From Chamaelirium japonicum (Eukaryota; Streptophyta; Magnoliopsida; Liliales; Melanthiaceae): a stretch of 64,000 nt of DNA. How positions within the stretch are numbered: position 1 is the stretch's first letter; every line of letters begins with the position of its first letter. The notes beneath the pieces were generated by a model that was not told the origin of the DNA, made no database searches, and worked only from the letters and a program-made list of their open reading frames with translations. The DNA is taken from contig CANTAL010000024.1 of the NCBI GenBank assembly GCA_947650365.1, forward strand, positions 1,893,001-1,957,000, in the 5' to 3' direction. A program made the position numbers and the translations under genes. Positions 25,311 through 45,913 of the stretch are shown in pieces.

Positions 25311-27252
25311 TCTCTTTATTTATCTCTTCGTTCTCTTCTCTCTATTCTGTCTTCGTTTCTCGCACCGTTTACTTGTGACTAGTCGGCTGGGCTCGATATG
25401 TTTATGCTGATAACGTGTTGTGAGAAGAGAAAAGAGAACAGAGAGATAAATGAAGAAAGAAGAGAGAAGTCTTACTCCAGTCCACTCGCCAAGGGTATTG
25501 GTGTGAAGTAAGAAGGAATCTAAATTCCAAAACTCTACTTCTCAATAATATAATTAAATCTCTCCGTTCTCTTCTTTCTTTTCCTATGGATTAGGGTTTC
25601 CCATAGATTGCTAAGGCCCTAAGTAACCAGACCCTATAAATAATATACGACCCCTTTAGGGTAGGGCATATTTGACGGCTCTCTCTTTCTTCTAACTCAC
25701 AATACATTATCAGCACGAACATGTCGAGCCCAGCCGACCAGTCGTAAGAAAACGGAGAGAGAAACGAATACAAAAGAGAGAAGAAAATGGAGAAATAAAT
25801 AAAGTGAGAAAAGATAAGAAGTCATGCTCCAGTCCATTCGCCATGGGAATTGGTATGAAGTAAGAAGGAATCTAAATTCCAAAACTTCACTTCTCAATAG
25901 TATCATCTCAATGTTATTATGATTATCATAGTAAATTCCAAAACTTTCTTTATTTTAATTAAATAATTAATTTAATTAAAAAAATTATAGTAACATTATC
26001 AGCACGAAAAGAGAAAAAGTCCTGCTCCAGTCCATTAGCCATGGGTATAGGTGTAAAGTAAGAAGGAATCTAAATTACAAAACTCTATTTCTCAATATTT
26101 ATATGACACCTTTAGGGTGGGGCACATTTGATGGATCTTTCTTTCTTCTACCTCACAACATGTTATCAGTACGAACATATTGAGCACAGCCTACCAGTCA
26201 CAAGAAAACGGAGAGAGAGACGAAGACAGAAGATAAAGAAAAAGAGAGAAGAGAAAACGGAGAGAGAAATGAAGACAAAAAAGAGAAAAAAAGATAGGAG
26301 AATGAAAAGATAAACGAAGAGAGAAGAAGTCATGCTCCAGGCCATTAGCTATGGATATAGGTGTGAAGTAAGAAGGAATCTAAATTCCAATACTCAACTT
26401 CTTAATATTTATACGACCCCTTTAGGGTGGAGCACATTTAACGTCTCTCTCTTTCTCCTATCTCACAATACGTTATCAGCATGAACATGTCGAACCCAGC
26501 CGATCAGTCACAAGAAAACGGAGAGAGAAATAATAGCAGAGGAGAAAGAACAAGAACGGAGAGATAAACAGAGACGGAAGAGAGAAGAATTCATGCTCTA
26601 GCCCATTAACCACGGGTCTAGGTGTGAAGTAAAATGTAATCTAAATTCCAAAACTCTACTTCTCAATAATATAATTTACACTCTCCATTCTCTTCTCTCT
26701 TTTCCCATAGATTAGGGTTTCCCATAGATTGCTTAGGCCCTAAGTATGCTTACCCTATAAATAATAAATAATTTATGACCCATTTAGGGTGGGGCACGTT
26801 TGACGCTCTATCTTTCTCTTATCTCACAATACGTAATCAGCACGAATATGGTAAGCCCAGCTGACCAGTCGTAAGAAAATAGAGAGAGAAACGAGGCCTG
26901 AAGTAAAGTTTTGGAATTTAGATTCCTTCTTACTTCACACCTATACCCATGGCCAAAGGATTAGAGTAGAACTTTTTCTCTCTTCTCTCTTTATTTATCT
27001 CTTTATTCTCTTCTCTCTTCTTCTCTTTCTTCTATGGAGTTTTTGAATTTAGATTCCTTCTTACTTCACACCTATACCCGTGGCCAATGGACTTGAGCAG
27101 GTCTTCTTCTTTATTGTCTCTTCATTTATCTCTTTGTCCTCTTATCTCTTTTGTCTTTATTTCTTTCTCCGTTTTCTTGTGACTGGTCGGCTGGGCATGA
27201 TATGTTCGTGTTGATAATGTGTTGTGAGATGGGAGAAATAGAGAGCCAGCAC

Positions 27253-27257
27253 ATGTG
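27253..27257. other. Target-site duplication, left (ATGTG)
   Basis: The five bases before the 5' LTR read ATGTG; those after the 3' LTR read ACGTG. The single C/T difference lies at a CpG. Joining the flanks restores a module sequence like the one at 1,250-1,280. Confidence 0.8.
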
Positions 27258-27288
27258 TGTGGGTGCAAATTTTGGCATAAATCTACCA

Positions 27289-27546
27289 CGGGACCCACCG
27301 GCCCTGCCTAGTGGGCCCACGAGGACTATAGCGGGACCCACCGGCCCTGCTTGGTGGGCCCACGAGGGCTACAGCGGGACCCACCGGCCCTGCTTGGTGG
27401 GCCCACGAGGGTTACAGCGGGACCCACCGGCCCTACCTGATGGGCCCACGAGGATTACAGCGGGACCCACCGGCCCTGCCTGGTGGGCCCACGAGGACTA
27501 CAGCGGGACCCACCAGCCCTGCCTGGTGGACCCCCGAAGACAACCG
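27289..27546 (+). promoter_or_regulatory. Six 43-bp U3 repeats with TCP-type sites (5' LTR)
   Basis: Units start at 27,289, 27,332, 27,375, 27,418, 27,461 and 27,504, exactly 43 bp apart. Most units carry GGACCCAC, which fits the class I TCP consensus GGNCCCAC, and GTGGGCCCAC, which contains both class I (GGNCCCAC) and class II (GTGGNCCC) sites. The sixth unit is degenerate. The array lies 70-330 bp upstream of the TATA box, the usual place for an LTR enhancer. Binding by TCP factors is inferred from motif match only. Confidence 0.75.
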
Positions 27547-27618
27547 CAGGGCCCGCAACTTTACCTGGAGAATCCCCAGATACTACAGCAGAAACCGCCA
27601 TTCGCCACCCGGAATGCC

Positions 27619-27626
27619 TATAAATA
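27619..27626 (+). promoter_or_regulatory. TATA box of the 5' LTR
   Basis: TATAAATA preceded by GAATGCC, downstream of the U3 repeats. It is the best core promoter in the LTR and would drive the genomic and gag-pol RNA. Confidence 0.8.
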
Positions 27627-28039
27627 GCAGAGCCTTCGAATGTAAAAGGGATCCCCGATCCACAAATCTGATTTCCACTCTGAGATCTGACTTTCAGAAC
27701 CAGAGCTCTGGGATTTCAAACTTCCGATCTACCATCTCCCTTTGATCTTCTTTCAGAAAGATCAGTGTTTACAGTGATACTCGGCCTGTCGAGATCACTT
27801 CAACATAAGTGTTAGTGAATTCGGGTTGCACCCTATAGCACGGAGACGTAGGCTTCGGCTGAACTCCGAGATCACTTCTCGTGTCAAACTCTCTCTCTGA
27901 TTGCATCTCTCTGTTTACAAATCAAAAGCTTCAACTTCGATCAACAGATCGACCAACGATCTTCGACGTCAACACGAACATTCAATTGACTGGTGCTGCG
28001 AGAGTCTTCGGGTCGGCACGAAGATTTTCCCCTACAGTT

Positions 28040-28057
28040 TGGCGCCGTCTGTGGGAT
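28040..28057 (+). other. Primer-binding site
   Basis: TGGCGCCGTCTGTGGG starts three bases after the LTR end. The leading TGG pairs with the CCA end of a tRNA, and TGGCGCC is common in plant gypsy elements. I do not assign the tRNA species. Confidence 0.8.
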
Positions 28058-28183
28058 CCGAGCGAGAAGCTGTGTTCTCTCTTTACTTCAACTACCAGAT
28101 CAATAGCCAAACTTCCTCGCCCCCTCGGTTGATCAGACAACTGATCGGACGTCGGCAATCTCGTTGTACCCTTCGCACTCTGA

Positions 28184-30652
28184 ATGGCGAGAACCAAACA
28201 TCAGGGCCAACCAGAAGGAAGTAACACTCAACATCAACCTCGTCCTGAGACTCGTTCAATGAGTCAAAGGCTCAACTTCGGGCAACCCCTTGCTGTTCCC
28301 GAGATGGGGGTTCATTCAGGAAGCGGGAGATCGGTCGATCGACCGATCGCCCCTCATCCTCATCAATCAATTGGGCAGACTGTCCCTGCTCCTGCTGAAG
28401 ATCCTCCATCGACTTACCAGATCTCTGCAATCGATTTCCAACTACTCCAATTGGCGAAGCAAAACGCCACCCTCACTGCTGAGAGGGATGCTCTGAAGAA
28501 GGCAGCTTCCGAAGCTGGAATTGCTATTCCGATCCCCTCCGCAAGTGAGAGGGTTGATCCTCCTCGACATTCAATTTACTCCGAACAACGGAGGTCAATG
28601 GGCACTGATGCTCTCGAGAGAATTCGACGCGACCCAACTCCCTCTGCTGCTCCTTGGAAGCAGAGTGTTTGGGATCGTCTTGAAGACGAGTCCTCCCAAT
28701 CTTCATCTGGTCGTAACTGCGACAAAAGAGCACCATCGAAGCTCAACCTGCCAAGGAAGCACCAAATGAAAGGCGCTCCTTCAAAGAGTAGAGTCTCCCC
28801 TTCCATTCCACTCCAACGTGGACTTGGATCGGACCTTCGACATCGACTTCGACCGGCAAACACTTCAATACCAGAGCAAGACCTTACGATCTTGCCTCTT
28901 GACCCACCTCTAGGTCGAGGACATGGTCGTAGGGATGGGTATTCCTCTGCCGGACCTCTACATCGAAGTCTCTTCGATACCACCTTTCCAAGAGGATGGA
29001 GAACTCCTATCCTCCCCAAATTCAACTGTATCAGAGGAGATCCAAGCCTCCATATACTTGCCTTCAAGCAAGCTCTAACGCCACACGAAGAGGAAAACAA
29101 CGTGCTCTGCCGCACCTTCGCGGGAAGTCTCGACGAGCCTTCACTCGACTGGTATCACAACCTCCGAGCTGGATCCATTACCCAGTTCGGTGTTTTGGCT
29201 AACCTCTTTGTGCAGCATTACCAGCTCAACCTGAAACCCGAGAAGAAGCTCGACTCTCTATATCGACTAAGGATGGGTGCAGATGAGACTCTCCGCAGCT
29301 TCACGAGGAGGTTTCGCAACGAGCATGCTGCTCTCTCTGGAAGGCATCTGGATGATGAAGCCATCATGTTGGCTTTCCAGAACGCTCTCCGCTTCGATCT
29401 ACACATCTACAACGACTTCATCCGCAATCCCCCTCCTTCTCTGGGAGCTATGTTCGATCGAATTCAGAGGGAGATTGAGGTGGAAGACGATCAAGTCGCT
29501 CGAAAAGGGCGAGAAACTAAGAGAAGGCCTGCTGAAAGAGAAGCACCTAAATATGCTGCAAAGGCTCACAACACTGAAGCAGCAGCCCCTCCGGCCAACA
29601 AAAGATCAAAGAATGATGGGCGTCGATCTCCAACGAAGACCACTTTCACCGAGTGGAACATGCCAGTCGAGCAGATACTCGACCGCATTCAACACGAAGA
29701 GTTCGTTCGGAGGCCTAATCCTCTTCAGCCGAATTCCAAATTCACAGCAGACAAGACAGTCTACTGTGACTTCCATCGAAGTCATGGCCATTCCACCGAT
29801 CGGTATTTTCGGCTGAAATTCCATCTTGAAGACCTATTGCGAGAAGGCCATCTTCAAGAGTTCGTTAGAGGCGGACACAATCAACATCGGACCTCTGCAA
29901 AGGGGAAAGAAGTGTGTTGGATACATCAAATCTCCTCTAACCGGCAAACTATCTCTGTGAATGCCAATGTTTTTGGTATTCATGGAACGTTGCACAATCA
30001 AAGTCTGACTGGGAAAGAGGTGGATCGCCAAGTTCGACGCATCTTCCACGTTCGTTCTACTGCGAGCAAAGAAGATACCTGGATCGAGAAACCCATCGAA
30101 GGTCTTTCTTGGCCATCAATCGTCTTCAACGACACTGATCTTCAAGGAGTCCATACTCCACATCGAGACCCTCTGGTCTTGAAACTCATTATCGACGGCA
30201 GCACTGTCAACCGGATCCTCATCGACACCGGAAGCTCCATCGATATTATGTTCTCAGACTGTTTCAAACGTCTGGGACATAAGTATCAAAGCCTCGACGT
30301 CGTCCCGACTGTGATCACCGGCTTCAATGGTGAACAGAGCATCACAGTGGGCGAATCCAGATTTACTATCGACCTCAGCCGAGAGACTCGAGTCTCGGTG
30401 AGGTTTGCAATCGTCGAAGGAATGTCTAGTTACAACGCCATTCTTGGGCGACCATTCCTCCATCAGATCAATGCCATCTCCTCCTCTTACCATCAACTAC
30501 TCAAGTTTGCAACTGGAGAAGGCATCGTCTGCATTCGAGGCGATCAGCAAGCTGGAAGATCTTGTGAAGCTGCTGCTGCTAAAACAGATCGAAAGATCAA
30601 TATTGCTCCTCCAAAGCGGCCACGAGATGAAGCTGGTCCCTCTTCTAAATAG
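28184..30652 (+). CDS. gag-pro: Gag-protease part of the Tat polyprotein
   Basis: 822 residues from the first good ATG after the primer site to a TAG. Residues about 285-402 form the retrotransposon Gag region (FAGSLDEPSLDWYHNL and surroundings), which builds the particle. A short coiled-coil-like stretch lies near residues 87-110. A zinc-knuckle-like motif of the Tat type (C-x2-H-x3-HGH) lies near 527-541, but the last expected Cys is Tyr (541, TAT). The aspartic protease shows the active-site DTGSS at residues 681-685 and the conserved ILGRPFLH near 769-776. The frame continues directly into reverse transcriptase after the stop, in the same phase. The stop context UAG CAA UCA fits the readthrough consensus, so Gag-Pro could be the major product and Gag-Pro-Pol the minor one. 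Simple decay of a Gln codon is the alternative. Confidence 0.93.
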   Translation: MARTKHQGQPEGSNTQHQPRPETRSMSQRLNFGQPLAVPEMGVHSGSGRSVDRPIAPHPHQSIGQTVPAPAEDPPSTYQISAIDFQLLQLAKQNATLTAERDALKKAASEAGIAIPIPSASERVDPPRHSIYSEQRRSMGTDALERIRRDPTPSAAPWKQSVWDRLEDESSQSSSGRNCDKRAPSKLNLPRKHQMKGAPSKSRVSPSIPLQRGLGSDLRHRLRPANTSIPEQDLTILPLDPPLGRGHGRRDGYSSAGPLHRSLFDTTFPRGWRTPILPKFNCIRGDPSLHILAFKQALTPHEEENNVLCRTFAGSLDEPSLDWYHNLRAGSITQFGVLANLFVQHYQLNLKPEKKLDSLYRLRMGADETLRSFTRRFRNEHAALSGRHLDDEAIMLAFQNALRFDLHIYNDFIRNPPPSLGAMFDRIQREIEVEDDQVARKGRETKRRPAEREAPKYAAKAHNTEAAAPPANKRSKNDGRRSPTKTTFTEWNMPVEQILDRIQHEEFVRRPNPLQPNSKFTADKTVYCDFHRSHGHSTDRYFRLKFHLEDLLREGHLQEFVRGGHNQHRTSAKGKEVCWIHQISSNRQTISVNANVFGIHGTLHNQSLTGKEVDRQVRRIFHVRSTASKEDTWIEKPIEGLSWPSIVFNDTDLQGVHTPHRDPLVLKLIIDGSTVNRILIDTGSSIDIMFSDCFKRLGHKYQSLDVVPTVITGFNGEQSITVGESRFTIDLSRETRVSVRFAIVEGMSSYNAILGRPFLHQINAISSSYHQLLKFATGEGIVCIRGDQQAGRSCEAAAAKTDRKINIAPPKRPRDEAGPSSK

Positions 30653-30658
30653 CAATCA
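30650..30658 (+). promoter_or_regulatory. Possible leaky stop codon (UAG CAA UCA)
   Basis: The in-frame TAG between protease and reverse transcriptase is followed by CAA TCA. This matches the UAG-CAR-YYA context known from tobamovirus replicase readthrough and described for the plant retroelement SIRE1. No frame change is needed to enter pol. Readthrough here is inferred, not shown; a C-to-T change in an ancestral CAG would give the same picture. Confidence 0.5.
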
Positions 30659-31702
30659 AAGGAGATTCCGCTGACCGAACCTCCGCCAATCGAATGGGAA
30701 GCATCACCTTCAATTGAAGAAATCATCCCGATCAACATAGGCAGCGGAGATCTCCCTCGACAAACATTTATTGGTACCGGTCTTAGCGACGTAGAAGCGC
30801 AAGACATGGTATCCTTCCTCCAGTCCAATATCGACGTCTTCGCATGGTGCTTCGAAGACATGCCTGGGATCAATCCAGATGACGCTTGTCACCGACTTGC
30901 AATCAAAGAAGAGGTGAAGCCCATCAAGCAAAAGCCTCGCACCATTCGACCAGAGCTGCAAGTTGCTGTTCAAGAAGAAATTACCAAGCTACTCGCAGCC
31001 GGATTCATCCGAGAAATAGAGTATCCAACTTGGATCTCTAATATAGTGGCTGTTCCAAAGAAGAATGGGAAAGTCAGAGTCTGCATCGACTTTACCAATC
31101 TCAACAAGGCTTGCCCCAAAGATCCTTTTCCCATGCCAAGGATAGATAGACTCGTCGACGCCACTGCTGGCCACGAGCTGTTGTCTTTCATGGATGGGTA
31201 TTCTGGGTACAATCAAATTCCTCTTCACGCCGATGATCAAGAGAAAACGTGTTTTGTGACTAGCCGAGGTCTCTACTGTTACAATGTCATGCCATTTGGC
31301 CTCAAAAATGCTGGTTCCACCTATCAAAGGTTAGTCACCAAAATATTCGAAGATCAGATCGGTCGCAACGTCGAAGTCTATGTCGATGATCTCCTCACCA
31401 AGAGTTCCGTTCGGAGCAAACATCTATCTGATCTGGCTGAAACCTTCCAAGTCCTTCGAAAGTATCGAATGAAGCTCAATCCAGCCAAGTGCGCCTTCGG
31501 AGTTCAATCTGGCAAATTCCTGGGTCATCTTGTGACCAGGAGAGGTATTGAAGCCAATCCTGATCAAATTCGAGCCATCATCGATATGCCTTCACCTACA
31601 AATCGAAAAGAAGTTCAACGCCTCACTGGAAGGTTAGCAGCACTCAATCGATTCATTTCAAAATCTTCCGACAAATACAAGCCCCTCTTCGACAAATTAT
31701 GA
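30653..31702 (+). pseudogene. pol: Reverse transcriptase segment of pol, closed by a premature TGA
   Basis: 349 residues in the gag frame. All hallmarks of a gypsy reverse transcriptase are visible: the Tat-type start DVFAWCFEDMPGI, the substrate-binding stretch GKVRVCIDFTNLNKACPKD, FMDGYSGYNQIPL with the first catalytic Asp, MPFGLKNAGSTYQR, and the catalytic YVDDL at 31,379-31,393, then KCAFGV and GKFLGHLVTRRGI of the thumb and connection. The segment ends at TGA (31,700-31,702), exactly where relatives continue into the RNase H linker. One C-to-T change of a CGA codon would explain this stop. Its catalytic residues look intact. Confidence 0.93.
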
Positions 31703-32194
31703 AAGGCGGATACATCCGGCTGGAGTCCAATCTGTGAAGAGGCATTTCAAAGCATCAAGAAATATCTGGTGCAAGCTCCTATCCTGACTGCTCCACTTCC
31801 AAAAGAAGACTTGTGGCTCTACCTTGCCGTGACCGATCAAGCAATCAGCGCGGTCTTAGTCAGTAGAAGAGAAGGCATCGAACATCCAGTCTACTACATC
31901 AGCCACACACTTCTTCCGGCTGAGACTCGCTACTCAAAAACTGAGAAGGTCATCTTGGCCTTGCTCACTGCTTCGCGTCGTCTTCAACCGTACTTCGTCT
32001 CCCACCAGATTACTGTCATTTCAGAACACTCACTCAAAGATATCATTGACAAAGCTGGTCGAGCTGGTCGAATGACCAAATGGGTGATCGAAATGAGCTC
32101 CCTGGGGATTCAGTTCGAATCTCGCACTTCTATCAAAGGTCAAGCAATTGCTGATTTTCTAGCTGACTTTCCAGTTGAAGACCCCATCATTTAG
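31703..32194 (+). pseudogene. pol: First (degenerate) RNase H segment of pol
   Basis: 163 residues in frame between a TGA and a TAG. It resembles the RNase H that directly follows gypsy reverse transcriptase: APLPKEDLWLYLAVTDQAIS, then PVYYISHTLLPAETRYSKTEK and KWVIEMSSLGIQF. The usual first catalytic Asp of the L-x-TDAS-type motif is replaced in LYLAVTDQ, as is typical of Tat elements that gained a second RNase H. It probably acts as a structural connection domain. The closing TAG (32,192-32,194) is followed by GAAGAG, which is not a readthrough context, so it is most likely a loss-of-function change. Confidence 0.85.
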
Positions 32195-34033
32195 GAAGAG
32201 GATGTCGACATGCGCTTGGAAGATGAGGATACTCCTCCGATCAATCCTGCAACAAAAATTGATCCAAGTCTTGAAGTTATTTCTGCAACTCCTCCATGGA
32301 AGCTTTATACTGATGGAGCATCAAGTTCGATCGGTTCGGGAACTGGGATATTCTTAATATCCCCCGAACTCGATCATCTCCAGAAGGCCACTCTCCTTGG
32401 GTTTAATGCCACCAACAACGAAGCTGAATATGAAGCACTCATTTCCGGACTCGAAATGGCAGAATCTCTGGGGGTAGATCGGATCATCATATACAGCGAC
32501 TCCCAACTGATCATAAGGCAAATCAATGGAGAGTACACAGCTCGAGAAGAAAGAATGCAACTCTACTTGGCCTTAGTACGACGTCTTCAACAACGTTTTA
32601 CTAGCGCTGAATTCATTCAAATCCCCAGAGCAGAGAACCGAGAAGCAGATGCCTTAGCTAATGCTGCCTCAGTTCTTGGAGACTCACTCGGAGGAAGGCA
32701 AATACAGATCGATTATCAAGAAGTACCCAAGACCATCCCCGATCAACAGATTCTTACTACTACAAAAGGATCTGGGGGTGGAGATCAGCTTGAAGATTGG
32801 AGACGACCAATTCTTGACTTCTTCAAACATGGCAAAATGCCAGAAGATCCAAATCAAGCCCGAAGGCTTCAAAGGAAGCTCCCATGCTACACTTTACAAG
32901 GTGAAGATTTATATTTCAAATCTCACAGCGGGATGTTACTCAAGTGCCTTGGTCCTGAACAAGCACAGGCAATCCTGATTGATATCCACTCCGGAGCTTG
33001 TGGAAATCATTCAGGAGGAAGATCCCTTGAAGCCAAGACGAAGCTACAAGGGTACTACTGGCCAACAATGGCAAAGGATGCTCAACAAGTCGTTCAAAGA
33101 TGCGAGCCTTGCCAACGACACGCTCGAGCTATCCATCTCCCTGCAGATGAACTTCATCAATTATCAAGTCCTTGGCCTTTCCATCAATGGGGGTTAGATT
33201 TCTTGGGTCCTTTCCCTCCAACTCCAAGCAAGAAGAAATATCTACTGCTGGCTACTGATTACTTCACCAAATGGGTAGAAGCTGTGCCCCTCTTTCGAGA
33301 GACTGACGACGAAGTGATCAAATTCATTCGGCACAACATCTTCTCAAGATTTGGCACACCTCAAGTTCTTGTTGCTGATAATGGAGCTCAATTTGACTCA
33401 GACAAATTCCGAGAGTTCTGTCTGAACAACGGTATCAAGTTATTCTATTCAACTCCAAGATATCCTCAATGCAATGGTCAAGTTGAAGCCTCAAAAAGAT
33501 CTATACTTGATATACTCAAGAAGAAACTCAACGACAAGAAAGGATTGTGGGAGCAAGTCCTACCTGAAGTTCTTTGGGGGTATCGCACAACTCCGAGAAG
33601 ATCAACAGGGTTCTCACCCTTCCGTCTAACATATGGATCAGAAGCAATACTCCCAACAGAAAATATATCTAGTACTTTGAAGACCAAAGCTGTTGAAGAA
33701 GGAGTCAATGAAGAACTTCGGATCAATGATCTAGACTTCTCTGAAGAACTACGAGATCTAGCATCACTTCGTGTGGCCAAATATCAACAGAAGATCAAAA
33801 GAGCCTATGACAAGAAAGTCCACAAGAGACAGTTCCCAGTGGGTAGTTTAGTTCTCAGAGCAGTTTTCTACAATACCAAAGAGCACAGCAGTGGAAAGCT
33901 TGCTCCCAACTGGGAAGGTCCATATATCATTGAGTCAGTTGGAGGCAAAGGTTCTTACAGACTGATCACACCAGAAGGAGATAGATTGCCTCGAGCTTGG
34001 AATTCTAGACACCTCAAGTTGTTCTATCCATAA
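32195..34033 (+). pseudogene. pol: Archaeal-type RNase H and integrase segment of pol
   Basis: 612 residues, same frame as gag. The RNase H keeps all four acidic catalytic residues: Asp in LYTDGASS (32,312), Glu in NNEAEYEAL (32,426), Asp in YSDSQL (32,498) and Asp in READALA (32,648). The integrase follows. It has an HHCC zinc finger (His pair in HSGACGNHSGG, Cys pair in CEPC), and a catalytic triad of Asp in WGLDFLGP (33,197), Asp in VADNGAQF (33,377) and Glu in GQVEAS (33,485). The last two are separated by exactly 35 residues, the classic D,D35E. A GPY/F-type C-terminal module (WEGPYII) ends the frame at TAA. It lacks its own start and can only be made as part of the polyprotein. Confidence 0.93.
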
Positions 34034-34049
34034 TGTAAATTCTGTGATG

Positions 34050-34055
34050 AATAAA
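34050..34055 (+). terminator. AATAAA shortly behind pol
   Basis: A canonical-looking polyadenylation hexamer lies 17 bases after the pol stop. It may end short sense transcripts before the antisense region; full-length RNA would have to ignore it and end in the 3' LTR. Confidence 0.3.
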
Positions 34056-34157
34056 AATCTCTTTCAAATGTTCAAGTGTACAAGTGTTCTGATTTTCAAT
34101 CCAAGTTCTGAAGCAGTTTCAAGTTATCCATATTCAAATTACCAGGTCTTTTAACAA

Positions 34158-34452
34158 GTTTGGGTGTTAGGGTTGCGACCCAACCCCTTACTAGCAAATG
34201 TTAAAAACTGACCATTTTCAAGTTACCAGGTCTTAACATGTTTGGGTGTTAGAGTTGCGACTCGACCCCTTACTAGCGAATGTTAAACTGACCTTCGAAA
34301 TTCAATATCCAATTTCAATCAATTCGATATCGTCTAACAGGTTTGGGAGTTTGAGTTGCGACTCGACCCCTTACATTCAAAAGTTATTCGAATTCAAATT
34401 CAATTTTCAAAGTTACAAGTTTGGGTGATTGAGTAGCGACTCAACCCCTTAC
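34158..34452 (+). repeat. Four diverged spacer repeats behind pol
   Basis: The word GTTTGGGTGTTAG followed by TTGCGACTCGACCCCTTAC recurs at about 34,158, 34,239, 34,339 and 34,418, with spacings of 81, 100 and 79 bp. Copies differ by a few bases. The spacer 34,034-34,671 contains no credible reading frame. Confidence 0.75.
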
Positions 34453-34671
34453 ATTCAAGTATATGCGTATTCAAATTACGTTCAAATTTATGAATACTCA
34501 ATCATGTCAAATAGCATTCCAGAACTCAACATTCAAAGACATTCAACTCAAAAGAAGTGCAAGTTTCAAATACCAAAAAGATGTCTTCTATTATCATCAA
34601 AATATGTCAGATACAAGGAGCTGTTACATTTCAAAAATTCACAAGTACAACAACAAAGAAGAAGAAAAGTC

Positions 34672-37417
34672 TCAGGGCTTGGCCACACTCTTTGCATGCG
34701 ACTTCTCCCCTTCAGATCCAGGACGAGCTTTACTCGCCACTGATGCCTTGGAGGATCGGACGCTAGCTACATGAGTCCTGAGCGCTTCTGCTGCCTTCTC
34801 TGCTGTTTCCTTGTAAACCTTGCACTCTGACAGCGCATGCTCCAGTGCCTTCTTGGATGTCTCCTCTCTGGCAGAGAAGGCAGCGTGCTGAGTAGCAAGT
34901 TGTTGCTTCAGCTCTTGAATCTCGATGGTGCGGCCACAGGACACGTCCTCAACCTTGGAGAGTCGAGTCTTCAAGGATTCGAGCTCGTGACTCTGTGCCT
35001 CACACCGATCCTTCAGCCCCTTGATCTCCAGCTTTCCCTTGCGAAGTTCCTCAATCTTGGATTTGAGAGAGGCTTTCTTCGAAGTCAGGAGCTCTCTCAG
35101 CTCATCTCTCTCCGCGGTCAACTGATTTATTTCAGCTACAGCTTCTTTTGCTCCCGCCCTCAAGGAGAGTTTGGTTGCAACATTCATAAGTGCTGAGTTC
35201 TGCAAAAGAACAAAAGAGTTGAATTATTCTGAAGAAAGATACGATTCAAATGATCGATCAAGCAGATGCACCTACCAACAGGTTAATTCTATCGAAAGCT
35301 TCATCCAAAGTGGCACTCGGAAGGTTGATGAGTTTTCTGATCGCAGCAGTGGGGCGGTTGATATCAACGTCACCCAAGCTCCTTATTGTTGGAGTCAATC
35401 CAGCAGGCGCACCTGCAATCAAAGGGAATCAAAGTGTTAGATTATTTTCGAACTTCAGAGACAAGACATTCAAAGCAAGTTAAGTTCAAATACCTGATGT
35501 TTCGACCCTCGGCTCTTTGCCCTTCCGACGATCAGAGCCACTCTGAGGAGTCGATTTCTCCTGAATCAGTGTTGGCGCTGGTTGAGGTTGAGGAGCCCCA
35601 TCGCCCACTCGACTTCCCCTCTCCAAATTAGGAGGGGGGGAAGCATTCCTGGGAGGTGAGGCTCTCTCTTCTTGCGACCCGCCTGGCTGGATGAGCCCGG
35701 CCAACATGGCCTCCACCTCGTTGAGCAGAGAGTGAGAGGGGGGAGGGGGTTGCTCAACCTCTACACCCCCACTCATTGTTGCTCCCTCAATACGAAGAGC
35801 GTCGGGGGGGATTTGATCAAGAGGCATGGGGTTGCTTCCAACCCCAGCACTCTTCGATAGTTTAATTTTGAAGCGCATCGGCCTCTTCAATTCGTCAAAT
35901 TTGTAGGTGGGAACCACCTTTTTGCCGTCGCCTTCTGTGTCGAGAATTTCCTCCATCTGACGGGCTTTAACCTCGTCAATGGGAATAGGGATCGAGTCCT
36001 CCCCCGTTGCACCACCAGTGGGGGTGGGAGGAATTTCTTCCTCACCACCCCCATTCTCATCATCCCCACTGGAGGGGGTAGAAGACGGATCGTCCTCGCC
36101 GTCCCCGTCCTCATCTTCGCCATTGCCACTGTTGTCGTGGCTGGCATTCTCAGTTTCTTCTTCTTCATTCTTCTTTTCTTCTTCTTCATCTTCATTCTTC
36201 TTGTCTTGGTCTTCATCTTCCTTAGGCTTGACGAGAGTTTTTCGCTTCTTCTTCACTGGGCCTCTTTGGAGCACCAGTTTCTCATCCATGGTAGGTAACC
36301 GGCGCCTCGCAGTGTAGATTTTCTTCTCGGCCCGAACCTTCCGGATGACCTTGCCCGAGTTGGGATCCTCTTCATAGTCAGAGTATAGGACTTCGTTGTC
36401 CTCGTACCTGTCTTTTGATCTGTGGAGGAGATTGGCCTTGCCATATCTCACAGGACAGTTAGAAAACTGTTTCCATGATCTGGTTCCACAGGTCAGCTCG
36501 AGGAACAAGTTATCTATGGCTCCCGCCCTCTCAGAATTCCAGGCGAAGATACCTCCAGTGCTGTACATCTTAACCGCCTCGTGCACGCTGTCTCGGGGGG
36601 TGTCAGGCACAGACATGGATGTCCAGGCGCCAGATACAGAAATAGGCCAGTCCGTGTACAACTTGTCCGAAGGGACTGTATCGGTGAGCGGGCGCAGGGG
36701 AGATACTCCAGTCAAATTATAGAAAGGGCTGTCCTTCCTGTAATTCCATCGATAATGAAAGAAGAAGTATCCGAGCTCAATCCTGGCAGGTTCACCTTCC
36801 GGGATACTGGAGTAACAGGCCCTCAAGTCCTCTTGAAAATCTGATTCCACCCGGCAGAACGCATAGATGATTCGCCAGGCATTCCCTGTAACTTGCCCCG
36901 GGCAAAGGCCAGATGTATTCAGTAGTCTTGCAGCGAAGGGTGGCAGAGGCAGACGTAGGCCGCAGTTCATTTGGCCGATGGTCACGATGGTTCCCATGAC
37001 CTTCTCGTTGCTGGCAAAATTGGTGAAGACGGTCTTCTTGTCGATGCCGAAAGCCGTCTGGATGCTAGGGAGTGAAGGCTGCGCTCCCTTCCCTTCAGTG
37101 AAATAAGAGAGAAGTGCTTGCCACTTCTTTCTCTTCGTATCTGTGAACTCACCACCAACATTGTACATGTACTCCGTCTCCTCTGTTAGGGGCATAAGCG
37201 GACCCAGAACAAACTTCACTTTGGGGATGAATTCTGGCCTTGATGGCGCTGAGGCAAAACCTACCCCTTGGTGCCTCTTGCCCAGTTGGCCAAGTTCAGT
37301 GAGAGCAGCCTTGCCTTTGCCACGGCCCCTCGGAGGAGATTGAACCTCGACAATTTCCTTCCCCTTTCTCTTCGAGGGAGCTGTACCGGACTTCTTCGAA
37401 CTGCCAGATGAAGCCAT
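34672..37417 (-). CDS. Spliced antisense gene of the Tat element, predicted 862 residues
   Basis: Predicted exons are 37,417-35,494, 35,412-35,276 and 35,199-34,672. Introns of 81 and 76 nt have GT...AG ends, and the joined frame is open throughout. The start is the first ATG of the frame; the frame also runs 50 codons further up without an ATG. A basic N-terminus (SKRKGK) is followed by a region near residues 130-260 with LPLPPFAARLLN and GNAWRIIYAF, resembling the plant 'putative gypsy type transposon' domain (Pfam PF04195, from memory). A KKKRK nuclear-localisation-like motif lies near 389. A very acidic stretch spans about 399-462, a Pro-rich part follows, and exon 3 is a long coiled coil. 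Antisense extra genes behind pol are known in Tat elements such as Grande; their function is unknown. The frame is intact while gag-pol is broken. Confidence 0.82.
35200..35275 (-). other. Predicted intron 2 of the antisense gene (76 nt)
   Basis: Donor CTGTTG|GTAGGTGC and acceptor CTTTTGTTCTTTTGCAG|AAC on the minus strand, with a good pyrimidine tract. It lies between codons (phase 0). Removal joins a 45-codon middle exon to the coiled-coil exon. Confidence 0.78.
35413..35493 (-). other. Predicted intron 1 of the antisense gene (81 nt)
   Basis: Donor TCAG|GTATTTG and acceptor TTTGATTGCAG|GTGCGCC on the minus strand, with a CTAAC branch-point-like word (35,440-35,436) about 23 bases before the acceptor. 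Without splicing, the frame ends two codons after the donor. Removal joins a split Gly codon and keeps the frame open. Confidence 0.78.
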
Positions 37418-37559
37418 TCGACCGATCGAACGAGAACAAGAACAAGAGCAGAAAATCAAGAGAACAAGGGTCTGGACTTCGAAAAATTTTGGAAGCGTGA
37501 GGCAAAATGACAGCCGGTGAAAGCTTTTGTACCCAGGGTAAAACAGGTGCGCAAATCGA

Positions 37560-37575
37560 GAAGACACGTGTCTTC
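37560..37575. promoter_or_regulatory. Perfect 16-bp G-box palindrome
   Basis: GAAGACACGTGTCTTC reads the same on both strands and has the G-box core CACGTG. It lies 143 bp upstream of the antisense ATG. The motif is typical of bZIP or bHLH factor binding. Confidence 0.6.
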
Positions 37576-37603
37576 ACCATATCAAATCGCGTGTTTTTGT
37601 AGG

Positions 37604-37613
37604 TACACGTGGC
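37604..37613 (+). promoter_or_regulatory. ABRE-like site
   Basis: TACACGTGGC contains CACGTGGC, the abscisic-acid-response consensus (C/T)ACGTGGC. It is the second ACGT-core site within 55 bp upstream of the antisense gene. Confidence 0.5.
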
Positions 37614-37888
37614 ATCCATCCGTAGCAAGCGCAAAACCAGGCGAACAGTCGCGACCAGGCGGAACGTCGGACCTACCGGTCCACATGAACCAACGGTCCA
37701 ATCAAGCCACCGGTCTGGGTAAACCGGACCGCCGGTTCAAAGCAACCATCAAGCCAACCAAGGATTCAAAAACAAGAAGAATCAAGCTCCATCAATGTTC
37801 AAAACTCTGCCAAAATATCGAAGAACAAAGCAGTAAATCTTCTCTGAAGGGCAGGTTCAAAACTTTACTTCGATCAGTCCAATCCCTA

Positions 37889-40132
37889 CTGGATCTGGCA
37901 AAAAACCAAGGTTTTTTGCCGATCACTCGAACCTTGACCGGATATTTTTCACCGATCGGACAAACATGCCCGATCGGCGAAAGTTATCTGATCGGTCAAA
38001 TTTCTACTGGATCTGGCAAAAAACCAAGGTTTTTTGCCGATCACTCGAACCTTGACCGGATATTTTTCACCGATCGGACAAACATGTCCGATCGGCGAAA
38101 GTTATCTGATCGGTCAAATTTCTACGGGATCTGGCAAAAAACCAAGGTTTTTTGCCGATCACTCGAACCTTGACCGGATATTTTTCACCGATCGGACAAA
38201 CATGCCCGATCGGCGAAAGTTATCTGATCGGTCAAATTTCTACTAGATCTGGCAAAAAACCAAGGTTTTTTGCCGATCACTCGAACCTTGACCGGATATT
38301 TATCACCGATCGGACAAACATGTCCGATCGGCGAAAGTTATCTGATCGGTCAAATTTCTACTGGATCTGGCAAAAAACCAAGGTTTTTTGCCGATCACTC
38401 AAACCTTGACCGGATATTTTTCACCGATCGGACAAACATGTCCGATCGGCGAAAGTTATCTGATCGGTCAAATTTCTACTGGATCTGGCAAAAAACCAAG
38501 GTTTTTTGCCGATCACTCGAACCTTGACCGGATATTTTTCACCGATCGGACAAACATGTCCGATCGGCGAAAGTTATCTGATCGGTCAAATTTCTACTGG
38601 ATCTGGCAAAAAACCAAGGTTTTTTGCCGATCACTCGAACCTTGATCGGATATTTATCACCGATCGGACAAACATGTCCGATCGGCGAAAGTTATCTGAT
38701 CGGTCAAATTTCTACGGGATCTGGCAAAAAACCAAGGTTTTTTGCCGATCACTCGAACCTTGACCGGATATTTTTCACCGATCGGACAAACATGCCCGAT
38801 CGGCGAAAGTTATCTGATCGGTCAAATTTCTACTAGATCTGGCAAAAAACCAAGGTTTTTTGCCGATCACTCGAACCTTGACCGGATATTTATCACCGAT
38901 CGGACAAACATGTCCGATCGGCGAAAGTTATCTGATCGGTCAAATTTCTACTGGATCTGGCAAAAAACCAAGGTTTTTTGCCGATCACTCGAACCTTGAC
39001 CGGATATTTTTCACCGATCGGACAAACATGTCCGATCGGCGAAAGTTATCTGATCGGTCAAATTTCTACTGGATCTGGCAAAAAACCAAGGTTTTTTGCC
39101 GATCACTCGAACCTTGACCGGATATTTTTCACCGATCGGACAAACATGTCCGATCGGCGAAAGTTATCTGATCGGTCAAATTTCTACTGGATCTGGCAAA
39201 AAACCAAGGTTTTTTGCCGATCACTCGAACCTTGACCGGATATTTTTCACCGATCGGACAAACATGTCCGATCGGCGAAAGTTATCTGATCGGTCAAATT
39301 TCTACTGGATCTGGCAAAAAACCAAGGTTTTTTGCCGATCACTCGAACCTTGACCGGATATTTATCACCGATCGGACAAACATGTCCGATCGGCGAAAGT
39401 TATCTGATCGGTCAAATTTCTACGGGATCTGGCAAAAAACCAAGGTTTTTTGCCGATCACTCGAACCTTGACCGGATATTTTTCACCGATCGGACAAACA
39501 TGCCCGATCGGCGAAAGTTATCTGATCGGTCAAATTTCTACTAGATCTGGCAAAAAACCAAGGTTTTTTGCCGATCACTCGAACCTTGACCGGATATTTA
39601 TCACCGATCGGACAAACATGTCCGATCAGCGAAAGTTATCTGATCGGTCAAATTTCTACTGGATCTGGCAAAAAACCAAGGTTTTTTACCGATCACTCGA
39701 ACCTTGACCGGATATTTTTCACCGATCGGACAAACATGTCCGATCGGCGAAAGTTATCTGATCGGTCAAATTTCTACTGGATCTGGCAAAAAACTAAGGT
39801 TTTTTGCCGATCACTCGAACCTTGACCGGATATTTTTCACCGATCGGACAAACATGTCCGATCGGCGAAAGTTATCTGATCGGTCAAATTTCTACTGGAT
39901 CTGGCAAAAAACCAAGGTTTTTTGCCGATCACTCGAACCTTGACCGGATATTTTTCACCGATCGGACAAACATGTCCGATCGGCGAAAGTTATCTGATCG
40001 GTCAAATTTCTACTGGATCTGGCAAAAAACCAAGGTTTTTTGCCGATCACTCGAACCTTGACCGGATATTTTTTCACCGATCGGACAAACATGTCCGATC
40101 GGCGAAAGTTATCTGATCGGTCAAATTTACTA
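37889..40132. repeat. Internal satellite: 19 tandem copies of a 118-bp repeat
   Basis: Units start every 118 bp from 37,889 to 40,013; the last is about 2 bp longer. Copies differ at few sites. Each unit holds two hairpins: arms GCAAAAAACC/GGTTTTTTGC with a 2-nt loop, and arms CCGATCGGACA/TGTCCGATCGG with a 4-nt loop. Almost every unit also has two W-box words (TTGACC), one per strand. Variant sites show a higher-order order: the pair of units starting CGGG then CTAG occurs at 38,125/38,243, 38,715/38,833 and 39,423/39,541, which are 590 and 708 bp apart. Tandem repeats in the 3' region of Tat and Ogre elements are known sources of plant satellites. Sense-strand open frames here are by-products. 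Confidence 0.95.
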
Positions 40133-40446
40133 CTGGATCGGTCAAAAAACACTGTTTTTTGACCGATCACCCAATTTTTGACCGGTTGAATTTTGCCCGA
40201 TCGGTCAAAATTTGACCGATCGGTCAAAAGTGACCGATCGGTCAAAATTTAACCGATCGTCCAAATTTCAGCTGATTGGTCAAAATTACTACTGGATCGG
40301 TCAAAAAACCCTGTTTTTTGACCGATCACCAGATTCTTGACCGGTTGAATTTTGACCGATCGGTCAAAATTTGACCGATCGGTCAAAATTTGACCGATCG
40401 GTCAAATTTGACCGATCGGTCCAAATTGACCGATCAGTCACTTTTT
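40133..40446. repeat. Two diverged 159-bp repeats rich in GACCGATCGGTC palindromes
   Basis: Two related units start at 40,133 and 40,292. They share the hairpin part of the 118-bp satellite (CAAAAAACNCTGTTTTTTG) and add strings of the palindrome TTTGACCGATCGGTCAAA, which carries a W-box on each strand. They may represent an older form from which the 118-bp unit was cut. Confidence 0.8.
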
Positions 40447-40546
40447 TCTCTAACATGCGACAAGTTTCTTCGTGTCCGTTTTTCAAAACAGGAAGTTGCT
40501 ATTTTTTGCACCAAGTCCAAGCCAGCTAGAATGCACTCTAGCTAAC

Positions 40547-40560
40547 TTGGAGGGGGTAAC
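40547..40560 (+). other. Polypurine tract
   Basis: TTGGAGGGGGTAAC directly precedes the TGTGGG of the 3' LTR. It is the place where plus-strand DNA synthesis would be primed. The trailing TAAC between the purines and the LTR is slightly unusual. The 100 bp before it (40,447-40,546) hold nothing recognisable. Confidence 0.7.
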
Positions 40561-40591
40561 TGTGGGTGCAAATTTTGGCATAAATCTACCA

Positions 40592-40849
40592 CGGGACCCA
40601 CCGGCCCTGCCTAGTGGGCCCACGAGGACTATAGCGGGACCCACCGGCCCTGCTTGGTGGGCCCACGAGGGCTACAGCGGGACCCACCGGCCCTGCTTGG
40701 TGGGCCCACGAGGGTTACAGCGGGACCCACCGGCCCTACCTGATGGGCCCACGAGGATTACAGCGGGACCCACCGGCCCTGCCTGGTGGGCCCACGAGGA
40801 CTACAGCGGGACCCACCAGCCCTGCCTGGTGGACCCCCGAAGACAACCG
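40592..40849 (+). promoter_or_regulatory. Six 43-bp U3 repeats with TCP-type sites (3' LTR)
   Basis: Identical copy of the 5' LTR array, shifted by 13,303 bp. It lies about 150-450 bp from the divergent W-box repeats, so both enhancer-like arrays sit side by side at this end of the element. Confidence 0.75.
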
Positions 40850-40921
40850 CAGGGCCCGCAACTTTACCTGGAGAATCCCCAGATACTACAGCAGAAACCG
40901 CCATTCGCCACCCGGAATGCC

Positions 40922-40929
40922 TATAAATA
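40922..40929 (+). promoter_or_regulatory. TATA box of the 3' LTR
   Basis: TATAAATA at the position equivalent to 27,619. It could drive readout transcription into the array from about 40,955. Confidence 0.7.
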
Positions 40930-41339
40930 GCAGAGCCTTCGAATGTAAAAGGGATCCCCGATCCACAAATCTGATTTCCACTCTGAGATCTGACTTTCAG
41001 AACCAGAGCTCTGGGATTTCAAACTTCCGATCTACCATCTCCCTTTGATCTTCTTTCAGAAAGATCAGTGTTTACAGTGATACTCGGCCTGTCGAGATCA
41101 CTTCAACATAAGTGTTAGTGAATTCGGGTTGCACCCTATAGCACGGAGACGTAGGCTTCGGCTGAACTCCGAGATCACTTCTCGTGTCAAACTCTCTCTC
41201 TGATTGCATCTCTCTGTTTACAAATCAAAAGCTTCAACTTCGATCAACAGATCGACCAACGATCTTCGACGTCAACACGAACATTCAATTGACTGGTGCT
41301 GCGAGAGTCTTCGGGTCGGCACGAAGATTTTCCCCCACA

Positions 41340-41344
41340 ACGTG
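41340..41344. other. Target-site duplication, right (ACGTG)
   Basis: Right copy of the 5-bp duplication; the left copy has T in place of the C. Confidence 0.8.
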
Positions 41345-43426
41345 CCGCACCCTAAAGGGGTCGTATAAATATTGAGAAGTAGAGTTTTGGAATTTAGATT
41401 CTTTTTTACTTCACAGCTATACCCGTAGCGAATGGACTAAAACAGGACTTCTAATCTCTTATCTCTTCGTTTATCTCTCCGTTCTTTTCTCTATTTTTCT
41501 CTCTCTTCTGTCTTTATTTCTCTCTCCGTTTTCTTGTGACTAGTTGGTTGGGCTCGATATGTTCGTACTGATAATGTGTTATAAGAAGAGAGAAGAGAAC
41601 CTAAATAAAATAATATAAATATCTCTAGTTTTAATAATTAAATAGAAGTATGTTCTTATCTTCTTTCTCTTTTGTGAAGTTTTGGAATTTAGATTCCGTA
41701 TTACTTCATACTTATACCCGTGGCCAATGGATTTGAGCAGGACTTCTTTTATCTTCTCTTTTTGTTTATTTTTACATTCTCTTCTCTATTCTTCTCTCTT
41801 TTCTCTCTTCTCTTCTCTCTTCTTCTCTCTCGTCTGTAAAGTTTTGGAATTTCAATTCCTTCTTACTCCACACCTATACCCGTGGCCAATGGACTAGAGC
41901 AGGACTTCTTTTCCCCTTCTTTCTTTGTTTATCTCTTTGTTCTGTTCTCTCTTCTACCTAAATAATTTAATTAAATAATATAATTATTTAATTAAGAGAG
42001 AAACGAAGACAAAAGAGAGAAGAGAATAAAGAGATAAACGAAAAGAGAAGATAGTAGAAGTCTTACTCCAGTCTATTCGCCACTGGTATATGTGTAAAGT
42101 AAGAAGGAATCTAAATTCAAAAACTTAACTTCTCAATATTTATATGACCTTATTAGGGTGTGGCACGTGTGATGGCCCTCTCTTTCTCCCATCTCACAAC
42201 ACGTTATCAACACGAACATGTCGTGCCCAGGCGAGACAAGAAAACGGAGATAGAAACGATGACAGAAGAGAGAGAAGAAGAGAGAAGAGGACAGAGAGAT
42301 AAACGAAGAGAAATGAGAGAAGAAGTTCTGATGCAGTCCATTGGCCACGGGTATAGATGTGAAGTAAGAAGGAATCTAAATTCTAAAACTCCACTTCTCA
42401 ATAATATAATTAATCTCTCCATTCTCTTCTCTCTTCTCGCATGGATTAGAGTTTCCTAGAGATTGCTTAGGCCCTAAGTAAGCTTACCCTATAAATAATA
42501 CACGACCTCTTTAGGATGGGGTATATTTGACGACTCTCTCTTTCTCCCAGTTCATAACACGTTATCTGCACGAACATGTCAAGCCCAGCCGACCAGTCGT
42601 AAGAAAATGGAGAGAAAAACGAAGACAGAAGTGGAGTTTTGAAATGTAGATTCCTTCTTACTTCACACCTATACCCATGGTCAATGGAATAGAGCAGGAC
42701 ATCTTATCTCTTCTCTCTTCATTTATTTCTCTGTTCTCTTCTCTCTTCTTCTGTCTCTTCTGTCTTTGTTTCTCTCTTCATTTTCTAGCTACTGGTTGGC
42801 TGGGCTCAACATATTCATGCTGATAATGTGTTGTGAGATAGGAGAAAGAGAGAACCGTCAAACGTGCCCCACCCTAAAGGGGTCGTATATTATTTATAGG
42901 GTAGCTTAGTTAGTGCCTAATCGATCTATGTCAAACCCTAATCTATGGGAGAAGAGAGAAAAAAAAACGGAGAAATTTAATTATATTATTGAGAAGTGAA
43001 GTTTTGGAATTTAGATTCCTTCTTACGTCACACCTATACCCGTGGCCAATGGACTTGAGCAGGGCTTCTTCTTTTTTCTCTCTTCATTTATCTCTTTATT
43101 CTCTTCTCTCTTCTTCTCTCTGTTCTGTCTTCGTTTCTCTCTCCGTTTTCTTGTGACTTGTCGGCTGGGCTCGATATGTTTGTGCTGATAACGTATTATG
43201 AAATGGGAGAAATAGAGAGCCGTCAAATATTCCCCACCCTAAAAGGGTCGTATATTATTTAAAGGGTAAGCTCACTTTGGGCCTAAGCAATCTATGGGAA
43301 ACCCTAATCCATAGTAGAAGAGAGAAGAGAATGGAGAGATTTAATTATATTATTGAGAAGTGGAGTTTTGAAATTTAGATTCCTTTTTACTTTATACCTA
43401 TACCCGTGGCTAATGGACTGGAGCAG
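41340..43426. repeat. Right arm of the giant inverted repeat, distal part beyond the gypsy element
   Basis: This continues the right arm after the gypsy insertion (subtract 14,087 to get pre-insertion coordinates). It is the reverse complement of about 1-2,090 of the window. Diagnostic matches are the rare CTTTGGGCCTAAG near 43,275 with CTTAGGCCCAAAG near 181, and the module at 42,207-42,422 with 1,028-1,222. The outer limit cannot be fixed because the partner runs off the left edge of the window. Confidence 0.75.
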
Positions 43427-43971
43427 GACTTCTTGTCTCTTCGTTTAACTCTTATTTTTTTTCTCACTTCTTCTCTCTTCTCTCTTCTCTCAACACATTA
43501 TAGCATGAACATGTCGAGCCCAGCCGACCAGTCAAAAGAAAATAGAGCGAGAAACGAACACAGAAGAGAGAGAAGAAGAGAGAAGAGAAAGAAGAAATAA
43601 ATAAAGAGAGAAGAAGAGAAATAAAATAATTTTCATGCTCATAAATTTATATAAATTATTTAATAATTTTGCAATATTTTATAATTAAATATTTAAATAA
43701 TAACATTGAGATGATACTATTTAAATATTTAAAGAAATAATATACTTTATAATATTTAAAAAATATTAATTGAAATAAATAAAATTAATAAGCATTCTCC
43801 CATCTCATAACACATTATCAGTATGAATATGTCGAGCCCAGCCAACCAGTCATAAGAAAACGGAGAGAGAAACGAAGAAAGAAGAGAGAGTAGAAGAGAG
43901 AAGATAATGGAGAGATAAACAAAGAGAGAAGAGAGAAGAAGTCCTGTTCTAGTCCATTCGCCAGGGGTTTA
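43427..43971 (+). repeat. Array segment before the first solo LTR
   Basis: Modules and an AT box in left-arm orientation, matching about 3,850-4,375. No gene is seen. Confidence 0.65.
43619..43798 (+). repeat. AT box, copy 5
   Basis: Direct copy of the 4,046 box, about 180 bp before the first solo LTR. It marks the return of the array to left-arm orientation. Confidence 0.7.
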
Positions 43972-45913
43972 TGTTGGAATTAGATCCGCTTATCAGAGTT
44001 GCAGCGGAAGCAAAAGATAGATCCAAAGATCATACGGTGTATGTTTCTTTACAATTAATTCTACAAAATAATCTACATGCAAATCTATGATCTTAGCATA
44101 TGTGCGGACACCCTAGAGGCATACTATGATCTACGGAAGACATGCATACATCTAGTTATGTGTTTAGAATCATCATACCTTTTGGATCTATGATCCAGAT
44201 AGAATGAAATAATGATGAACCGTATGTGAATTGCAAGGGAAGCTGTCGGATAGCACCTTGTCCTTTGCGAATTATGGAATCCTCGAAATCCCGTCTTTGA
44301 GTGCAAGGATTACGAGCCGACGGAGGAATTCATTGTGAAGACGATGGCAAGCCACAAGATCTCCTCCTTCTCTTTCTCTCTTCTTCCTTCTCCTTCCTTC
44401 ATCCTTCTTCTTCCTTTTCCGTCCTTGGCCGAAACCACAAAGAGGAGGAGAGGGGGAGAGGTTCGGATTTTGGTGAGGAAAGGCACTAAAGGCCAGCCCC
44501 TCCCCCTCCTCTATACATATAGGGCCGGTCTCCTAGTGCCATATGCAAGATAAGGCTGGCCCTAATTAGATTAGGATAAGGGGGGGTCGGTTTGTAGGGA
44601 TTCCAAGTGTCTATCGTGAAGCCTGAACAAAAACGCCCTTCACTAAAAGTGAAAAACTGAAAGAGAGATTGAGTGAGGTGCGCTACTCGGAATCGAGTTC
44701 CGTTAGTGCCTATGAGCTCCTGGAATTATTCCGCTCATTCTAAGATCCATATTCAACATGTTCTGAGCCATATTTCAGTATTTACCAAAATACCCCTACG
44801 GCCCGTAACACATACGAATTAGGTTCTTAGGCTCCAGGCTTGCGCTCCATCGCGCTACTTCGCATCCAACGTATCCAACCAGGTCGGGGAAACAATTTCT
44901 ATACGCAACAACATGATGGAACCTTTAGGGTTTGGGATCTCTATCTCTAACCGGATCCCTGATTAACTATTCTGGTGACACACCGAAAGTTCCGTTAATC
45001 AGTCCTAATCCGATTAACCCACGTAGCCACCCAGAGTGTGACACAAGTTGAACTCTAGATCCTAAACTTATGTTACTCCCTCGTAACCCTGTTCTTTACT
45101 ATACTCTGATAATCCTTAGTCCCTCATATTACTGGTGCCATGATACGACTCGGGCGGTGGGGAGTACCGTCAGATCCCGATCGATCATCTGACTAGGGTT
45201 TGATGACTTGTCTTCTATAACACTACATACCTTCCGGTGCTATGCCTAGCATCCGGAACATCGTCAGTCATACTGACAACCACTAGGCCTGGGTTAACTA
45301 TGTGGACAGATTGACTCATCAAAATGCACCCATCCAACACTGGACGTCGGATAACCTGTAGGGATTACATATCACTCAAGTGCTAGCCGGGTAGCCCAAC
45401 GTACCGTGGTATTGGACTATGGAAGGTCCGTACATGTTGGCACATCAAAGCACCACACAACTGGTTAGCCCAGTGTACATGGTCCCTCAGGGTTAAGGAC
45501 AGATTATCTATAGTAGTAAGACGGTTTATGCACCAGTGTCTGAATCAGTAAACTGTGCACCGTCTTGGTTCCTGTTCAACACGATCATCGTGCTTGGTCA
45601 GGTGAATGGAAATCCCATGTTCCCGTGGTGGAGACTTCACCATATCCTCTACCTGCCAACAGCTTGTTCTCGGTAAAGCGAGCAGCATCACCTAAGCTGT
45701 GAACTAGTTCTAGGTCTACACATAACTGGTCTACTGGGTCTCCCAAGCATGGATCCACCATGCGCCTCGGTGGCCTACTGTGTTCTCTAGGATCCTTTTA
45801 TTATATGTGTATAAACATATACCATAGTAGTATTCTAATTAAAGCAATAACCAAAGACATCTTTATTAATGTTAATACAGAAAATCCACGCTAAGGACAC
45901 ACGAGCTACAACA
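43972..45913 (-). mobile_element. Solo LTR of an unclassified LTR retrotransposon (1,942 bp)
   Basis: Starts TGTTGGAATTAG and ends AGCTACAACA, giving the 5-bp terminal inverted repeat TGTTG/CAACA. It is flanked by perfect GTTTA duplications (43,967-43,971 and 45,914-45,918); removing element and one GTTTA restores a module. There is no second LTR or coding interior, so it is a recombined solo LTR. On the minus strand it ends with GCTTCCGCTGC shortly before the terminus, an LTR ending I associate with Ty1/copia elements, and TATATGTATAG near 44,520 could be its TATA box. Orientation and superfamily are therefore tentative. Open frames inside are short and unsupported. Confidence 0.85.

Follow-up and report, generated by a model that had tools for sequence, protein, structure and literature searches.

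A putative three-exon antisense TRP28 gene in a Retand retrotransposon of Chamaelirium japonicum

Antisense genes of Retand elements and the element in the window

Antisense genes with a TRP28 domain (PF04195) are a known family of accessory genes, typical of the Retand lineage of Ty3/gypsy retrotransposons (PMC11963269 and PMC7264820, in the parts drawn on here). In those parts of PMC11963269, antisense ORFs are present in all Retand clusters and TRP28 in 97% of the recently active ones, a DNA-binding capacity is predicted, and the antisense TRP28 ORFs are given as lacking similarity outside transposons. Grande GENE23 (2013), compared here by its description in an excerpt of PMC7264820 only, is a nuclear accessory protein that is encoded antisense and has a promoter of its own upstream. 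The deltaretroviral HBZ and APH-2, named in the same excerpts of PMC11963269, are antisense nuclear regulators encoded near the 3' end, and the likeness to them is one of how they work only.

According to the portion used of a 2025 review (PMC12786077), plant LTR retrotransposons generally have no introns, with few exceptions. Ogre and EVADE contain introns (PMC6317226 and PMC12786077, in part), as the element described here is predicted to do; however, theirs lie in the sense transcript, whereas those predicted here are on the strand left uncopied. The relevant section of PMC7264820 calls for a look at spliced antisense transcripts, and the word 'intron' is absent from the main texts of PMC11963269 and PMC7264820. 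No introns in the antisense TRP28 gene are described in the literature found by title or start of abstract, and older original papers may note them. The intron anatomy and the conserved upstream block of this gene are, as far as could be checked, new.

The window (the whole stretch analysed, 64,000 nucleotides of Chamaelirium japonicum contig CANTAL010000024.1) contains a whole LTR retrotransposon (Table 1). The single difference between its LTRs, at a substitution rate of 1.3e-8 per site and year, gives an insertion age of roughly 50,000 years. The element is flanked by ATGTG and ACGTG, a possible imperfect 5-bp target duplication. Its pol domains run in the order RT, RNase H, second RNase H, integrase (PF17917/PF17919, then PF13456/PF00075, then integrase), and a second RNase H between RNase H and integrase is ascribed to Ogre and Retand in the part used of PMC6317226. 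Because this second RNase H lies ahead of the integrase, an antisense PF04195 frame (sub-cut-off in the window copy) lies between pol and the 3' LTR, and the pol-3' LTR region is long and carries a tandem array, the element is placed in the Retand lineage of Ty3/gypsy as delimited in the excerpts of PMC6317226 and PMC11963269. Place, antisense strand, PF04195 and nearby array all agree with the Retand antisense TRP28 ORFs as far as they are covered in those excerpts (Vicient 2025, PMC11963269). The LTR, internal and pol-3' LTR lengths are within the ranges given there, whereas the 118-bp array unit exceeds the 8-100 bp given for such units.

Several smaller repeats were also seen. A G+C-rich 43-bp tandem unit is present in about six copies in each LTR (27289-27541 and 40592-40844), and an 82-bp unit is repeated about twice at 34128-34287, in the gap where pol and the antisense gene converge. 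On either side of the element (20065-27280 and 41335-54990) lie many diverged repeats of shared families, given which the element may sit inside an older repeat array.

Table 1. Coordinates of features in the window
Feature	Position	Strand	Basis
LTR retrotransposon, whole, Retand lineage, 14,082 bp	27258..41339	+	LTR comparison and flanks
5' LTR, 779 bp	27258..28036	+	1 difference from 3' LTR
gag-protease frame, 822 aa, ending in family-fixed TAG	28184..30652	+	frame and profile matches
TAG then CAATCA, leaky-stop-like	30650..30652	+	family comparison
pol frame (RT, RNase H, second RNase H, integrase), two private stops	30653..34033	+	profile matches
Antisense gene, exon 3, coiled-coil-like, with stop codon	34672..35199	-	frame, dN/dS
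Intron 2, 76 nt, phase 0, GT..AG, no CTAAC in window copy	35200..35275	-	splice-signal comparison
Exon 2, 137 nt	35276..35412	-	joined frame
Intron 1, 81 nt, phase 1, GT..AG, CTAAC 28 nt before end	35413..35493	-	splice-signal comparison
Exon 1 (TRP28 region, KKKRK, acidic stretch)	35494..37417	-	frame, PF04195, dN/dS
TACAAAAG where many relatives have TATATAAG	37524..37531	-	TATATAAG in 13/26 rows
Second G-box, palindrome GACACGTGTC	37563..37572	-	CACGTG in 24/26 rows, full palindrome in 22/26
First G-box CACGTG, putative antisense promoter	37606..37611	-	26/26 rows
Tandem array upstream of antisense gene, 118-bp unit, 20.1 copies	37872..40246	.	repeat analysis
Clustered TGACCGATCGGTCA palindromes: five without mismatch and three with a single one, eight in all	40194..40440	.	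pattern search
3' LTR, 779 bp	40561..41339	+	LTR comparison

The earlier note had set an intact antisense gene against a gag-pol with three stops. All three in-frame stops are present (30650-30652, 31700-31702 and 32192-32194), but damage does not explain the first. A search with the stop codon given as NNN and with exact flanks, CAATCA included, had 660 matches, and TAG was read in 100 of the 100 matches listed. The gag-protease frame keeps its 822 aa in all 55 scored copies, five of which have a further TAG inside. No frame longer than 1133 aa was found in 116 scored RT copies, and a frame through the gag-pol junction would be about 1,949; the frame is exactly 1126 aa in 73 of these copies, where the stops at 31700 and 32192 are absent. 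Among nine stretches from relatives the junction is contained in five, reading TAG-CAATCA in four and TAG-CAATTA in one, while one further stretch ends short of the junction and three have no gag-pol match. What lies between gag-protease and pol is a fixed TAG followed by CARYYA, and TAG-CAATCA fits the leaky UAG-CAR-YYA stop of plant viruses. The family-fixed motif resembles a leaky stop that could allow gag-pol readthrough. For rice gypsy elements, candidate readthrough is mentioned, with citation of the RIRE2 paper, in PMC2754532.

With one stop family-wide, the contrast between an intact and a broken frame does not hold. Given two private stops in about 1,949 codons, the chance that an 862-codon frame stays open is about exp(-0.88) = 0.41, and intactness of the window copy was rejected as proof of selection because it is expected by chance in about 4 of 10 cases.

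The antisense frame and its constraint

The three-exon antisense gene of 862 residues described in the earlier note was recovered, with both introns at the predicted positions; that genes of this type were already published is not mentioned in the note. The exons join on the minus strand from an ATG at 37417 to a TGA ending at 34672, and sum to 863 codons including the stop. Read without splicing, exon 1 stays open for 642 codons from the ATG and meets a stop shortly past the exon boundary. Its antisense frame contains 0 stops, against 15, 16, 19, 26 and 34 in the other five frames, and is therefore not due to chance.

The basic N-terminus, KKKRK (at residue 389) and a net-negative stretch from about 401 to 460 are present. 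PF04195 matches residues 145-190 with 21.8 bits, under the cut-off of 26.2, and the profile matches of exon 3 are weak, all below cut-off, and many are to coiled-coil families. A PF04195 search of the host genome (1.52 Gb in 3253 contigs), in which 150 of 5979 candidates were scored, listed 137 related places above the cut-off, and 30 loci were taken for comparison. With E values up to 1 accepted, PF04195 is detected in 31 of the 34 members aligned (best 1.2e-7). The 30 loci were picked partly by PF04195 score, one of the features counted. Beyond PF04195, Pfam gave single weak matches only on the aligned members. A sequence search of the PDB returned three matches, all with E of at least 0.64, and AlphaFold models of exon 1 residues 50-345 from 18 and 34 sequences had mean pLDDT values of 36.5 and 34.6. 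Scans with the single protein gave two pattern matches in viral_contigs, neither of them a relative, and zero matches in plasmids.

A comparison of relatives supports the antisense frame. Exon 1 dN/dS is 0.07-0.18 in 28 of the 30 PF04195 loci, aligned over 559-637 codons; the other two, L017 (saturated, 210 codons) and L035 (39 codons), were left unscored. Exon 1 dS exceeds 1 in all 28, and the ratios are therefore rough. A DNA search of the host genome, in which the best 40 of 5501 candidates were scored, gave 40 places matching the whole query at 98-100% identity, and in seven close copies exon 1 dN/dS is 0.15-0.28, from 14-27 changes each, with a stop in one. The pooled dN/dS of exon 2 over 14 relatives is 0.21, and that of exon 3 is 0.14-0.36 in 13 of 14 (L050 being saturated). 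Third codon positions of the antisense frame hold 57% of the differences in exon 1 and 51% of those in exon 3. The exon 3 ratios of the seven close copies (0.16-0.95) were set aside, as they come from 3 to 8 changes each.

Neutral evolution in relatives, named in the earlier note as evidence that would count against the gene, was thus looked for and was not what the relatives displayed; the ratios show strong purifying selection on the predicted antisense frame across the family. Stops occur in the aligned exon 1 codons of 14 of the 28 scored loci; these, and the lost splice signals described below, speak against the gene but are expected because the copies are old. A stop also lies within exon 1 in 11 of 69 scored copies, and in exon 3 of 4 of 14 relatives. 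Selection is a property of the family, and the window copy, with its two private pol stops, tells nothing by itself.

Predicted introns, the upstream block and competing readings

Sequence beyond exon 1 was fetched for 14 loci, and in all 14 exons 2 and 3 follow beyond similar introns, with an uncertain exon 2 start in L050. Conservation of the splice sites, which had been suggested as a check on the gene, was found. In the 13 rows, window included, from which intron 1 was cut by script (L048 and L050 were not cut), the donor GT is kept in 13 and the acceptor AG in 12 (lost in L043). For intron 2, in 15 rows, GT is kept in 13 and AG in 14 (lost in L052); the donor exceptions are L050 and L043, the latter one base off through an indel in exon 2, with GT present by eye. 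In the distant relative L050, intron 2 is of the GC-AG form. CTAAC lies 15-50 nt before the intron end in 10 of 13 rows for intron 1 and 11 of 15 for intron 2, where shuffling predicts 0.33 each, although the rows are related and the comparison yields no probability. Intron lengths range over 81-95 and 70-77 nt and are not kept to a multiple of three, and both window introns are T-rich (41% and 43%). Conserved GT-AG ends with a branch-like motif, as expected of spliceosomal introns, are thus found in the relatives, with some losses.

Spliced copies were sought in the host genome with patterns spanning the first junction (34 nt) and the second (37 nt), each with up to three mismatches. Neither had a match, versus 399 matches for the unspliced first donor at the length and tolerance of the first-junction pattern; these patterns reach the close family only, and the unspliced control covers the first junction only. 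The counts fit the earlier proposal that introns removed on the minus strand survive through copying of the plus strand.

Upstream of the ATG, 25 of the 30 loci carry an 80-nt block that contains two G-boxes. Across 15 representative loci the region from -220 to -141 matches the window at 93-97% identity, and that from -50 to -1 at 36-58%; the 93-97% of the block stands against a synonymous difference of 0.58-0.73 in exon 1. The 26 rows counted in Table 1 are the window and the 25 loci recognised by matching the block itself. TATA followed by A, T or G is present in 20 of the 26; the window and its close copies read TACAAAAG, without a TATA word where relatives have one. Of the five block-less loci, the three examined (L033, L030 and L028) all lack CACGTG; a TATA word stands at -117 in L033 and at -97 in L030, and none by pattern in L028. 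The conserved block is inferred to be a putative RNA polymerase II promoter.

The frame is constrained, intron positions and splice signals are conserved, as is the upstream block, and no spliced copies were found. On these grounds the favoured reading, at a probability of about 0.85, is an antisense TRP28 accessory gene belonging to a Retand element and organised much like an ordinary plant gene, in three exons, with two spliceosomal introns and a promoter of its own. The upstream block would act as an RNA polymerase II promoter for a minus-strand transcript, and this transcript would be spliced. The introns would persist because the plus-strand RNA is copied in retrotransposition and carries them as an unspliceable complement. 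Alternatively, exon 1 alone could be the gene, with the introns not removed and exons 2 and 3 not joined. Its 642 codons are indeed open in unspliced DNA, and ORF surveys such as PMC11963269, in the part used, count single frames of this kind; however, exons 2 and 3 are themselves constrained, in separate frames that splicing alone brings together, and splice signals stay conserved even though intron lengths vary, which makes an unspliced gene very improbable. An antisense transcript acting mainly as RNA, by forming double-stranded RNA that limits the element, with the protein secondary, has been proposed for LTR elements (PMC7264820 and PMC12786077, in the passages used). The constraint at the amino acid level shows that the protein matters, so that a mainly RNA-based role is very improbable here, although such a role may exist besides.

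Host genes usually bear introns, and the window copy might in principle have captured one, once. A single capture is, however, hard to credit given 399 and 660 pattern matches in the family, relatives saturated at synonymous sites, and the lack of similarity outside transposons stated in the part used of PMC11963269. A functionless chance frame might also be considered, since intactness in the window copy alone is no evidence. Against it, the other frames hold 15-34 stops, and the dN/dS values of the relatives, which lie far under 1, refute it unless the alignments are wrong.

Should the accessory gene prove to be spliced from three exons, single-frame surveys record it as fragments without its coiled-coil end, and any assay based on exon 1 would employ a truncated protein. 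The gene would also be an example of introns that survive in an LTR retrotransposon by virtue of their place on the uncopied strand. It is conceivable, though somewhat doubtful, that the protein enters the nucleus, pairs through the exon 3 coiled coil and regulates the element.

Tandem array and mosaic history

Upstream regions were compared in the window, in 16 selected from the 25 block-bearing loci, and in three distant loci. Arrays are present in 20/20, with a period of 118-119 in 17. Allowing up to two mismatches, TGACCGATCGGTCA occurs 27 times in the window, all within 37949-40440, where 0.02 are expected, and 19 of the 27 are the two-mismatch word of the 118-bp unit; array copies are not independent of one another. 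The palindrome core CCGATCGG is found at least three times in 18 of the 20 regions, and ranks first of 256 palindromic 8-mers (next: 2/20). Non-palindromic array words, such as GGCAAAAA, are equally widespread (20/20); the array is therefore conserved as a whole, and the palindrome is not singled out. It is a speculative and rather unlikely extension that gene, promoter and array form one module, in which an element-encoded dimeric DNA-binding protein would bind the iterated palindrome TGACCGATCGGTCA next to its own promoter, such binding being a guess, and control its own transcript and perhaps the 3' LTR. Through its antisense position the gene may retain introns, and these would give its RNA the appearance of a host transcript and protect it from silencing. 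Thanks to the conserved upstream block and the array, this regulatory idea can be tested.

Exon 1 dS is greater than gag-pol dS in 15 of 15 pairs (six families) but in four of six pairs with the distant L028. An exchange of modules between antisense gene and gag-pol is not claimed, as rate differences and saturation could give the excess. Within the antisense gene, exon 1 and exon 3 group the window with different relatives, and the gene is a mosaic. The exon 1 tree joins the window with L010 (99/100), and exon 1 rejects a grouping of the window with L015-L034 (p-AU 2.6e-39). The exon 3 tree places the window among eight others, L015-L034, and exon 3 rejects the window with L010 (p-AU 2e-4); the groups tested were named after the trees had been seen. 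Template switching is a likely cause of this mosaic.
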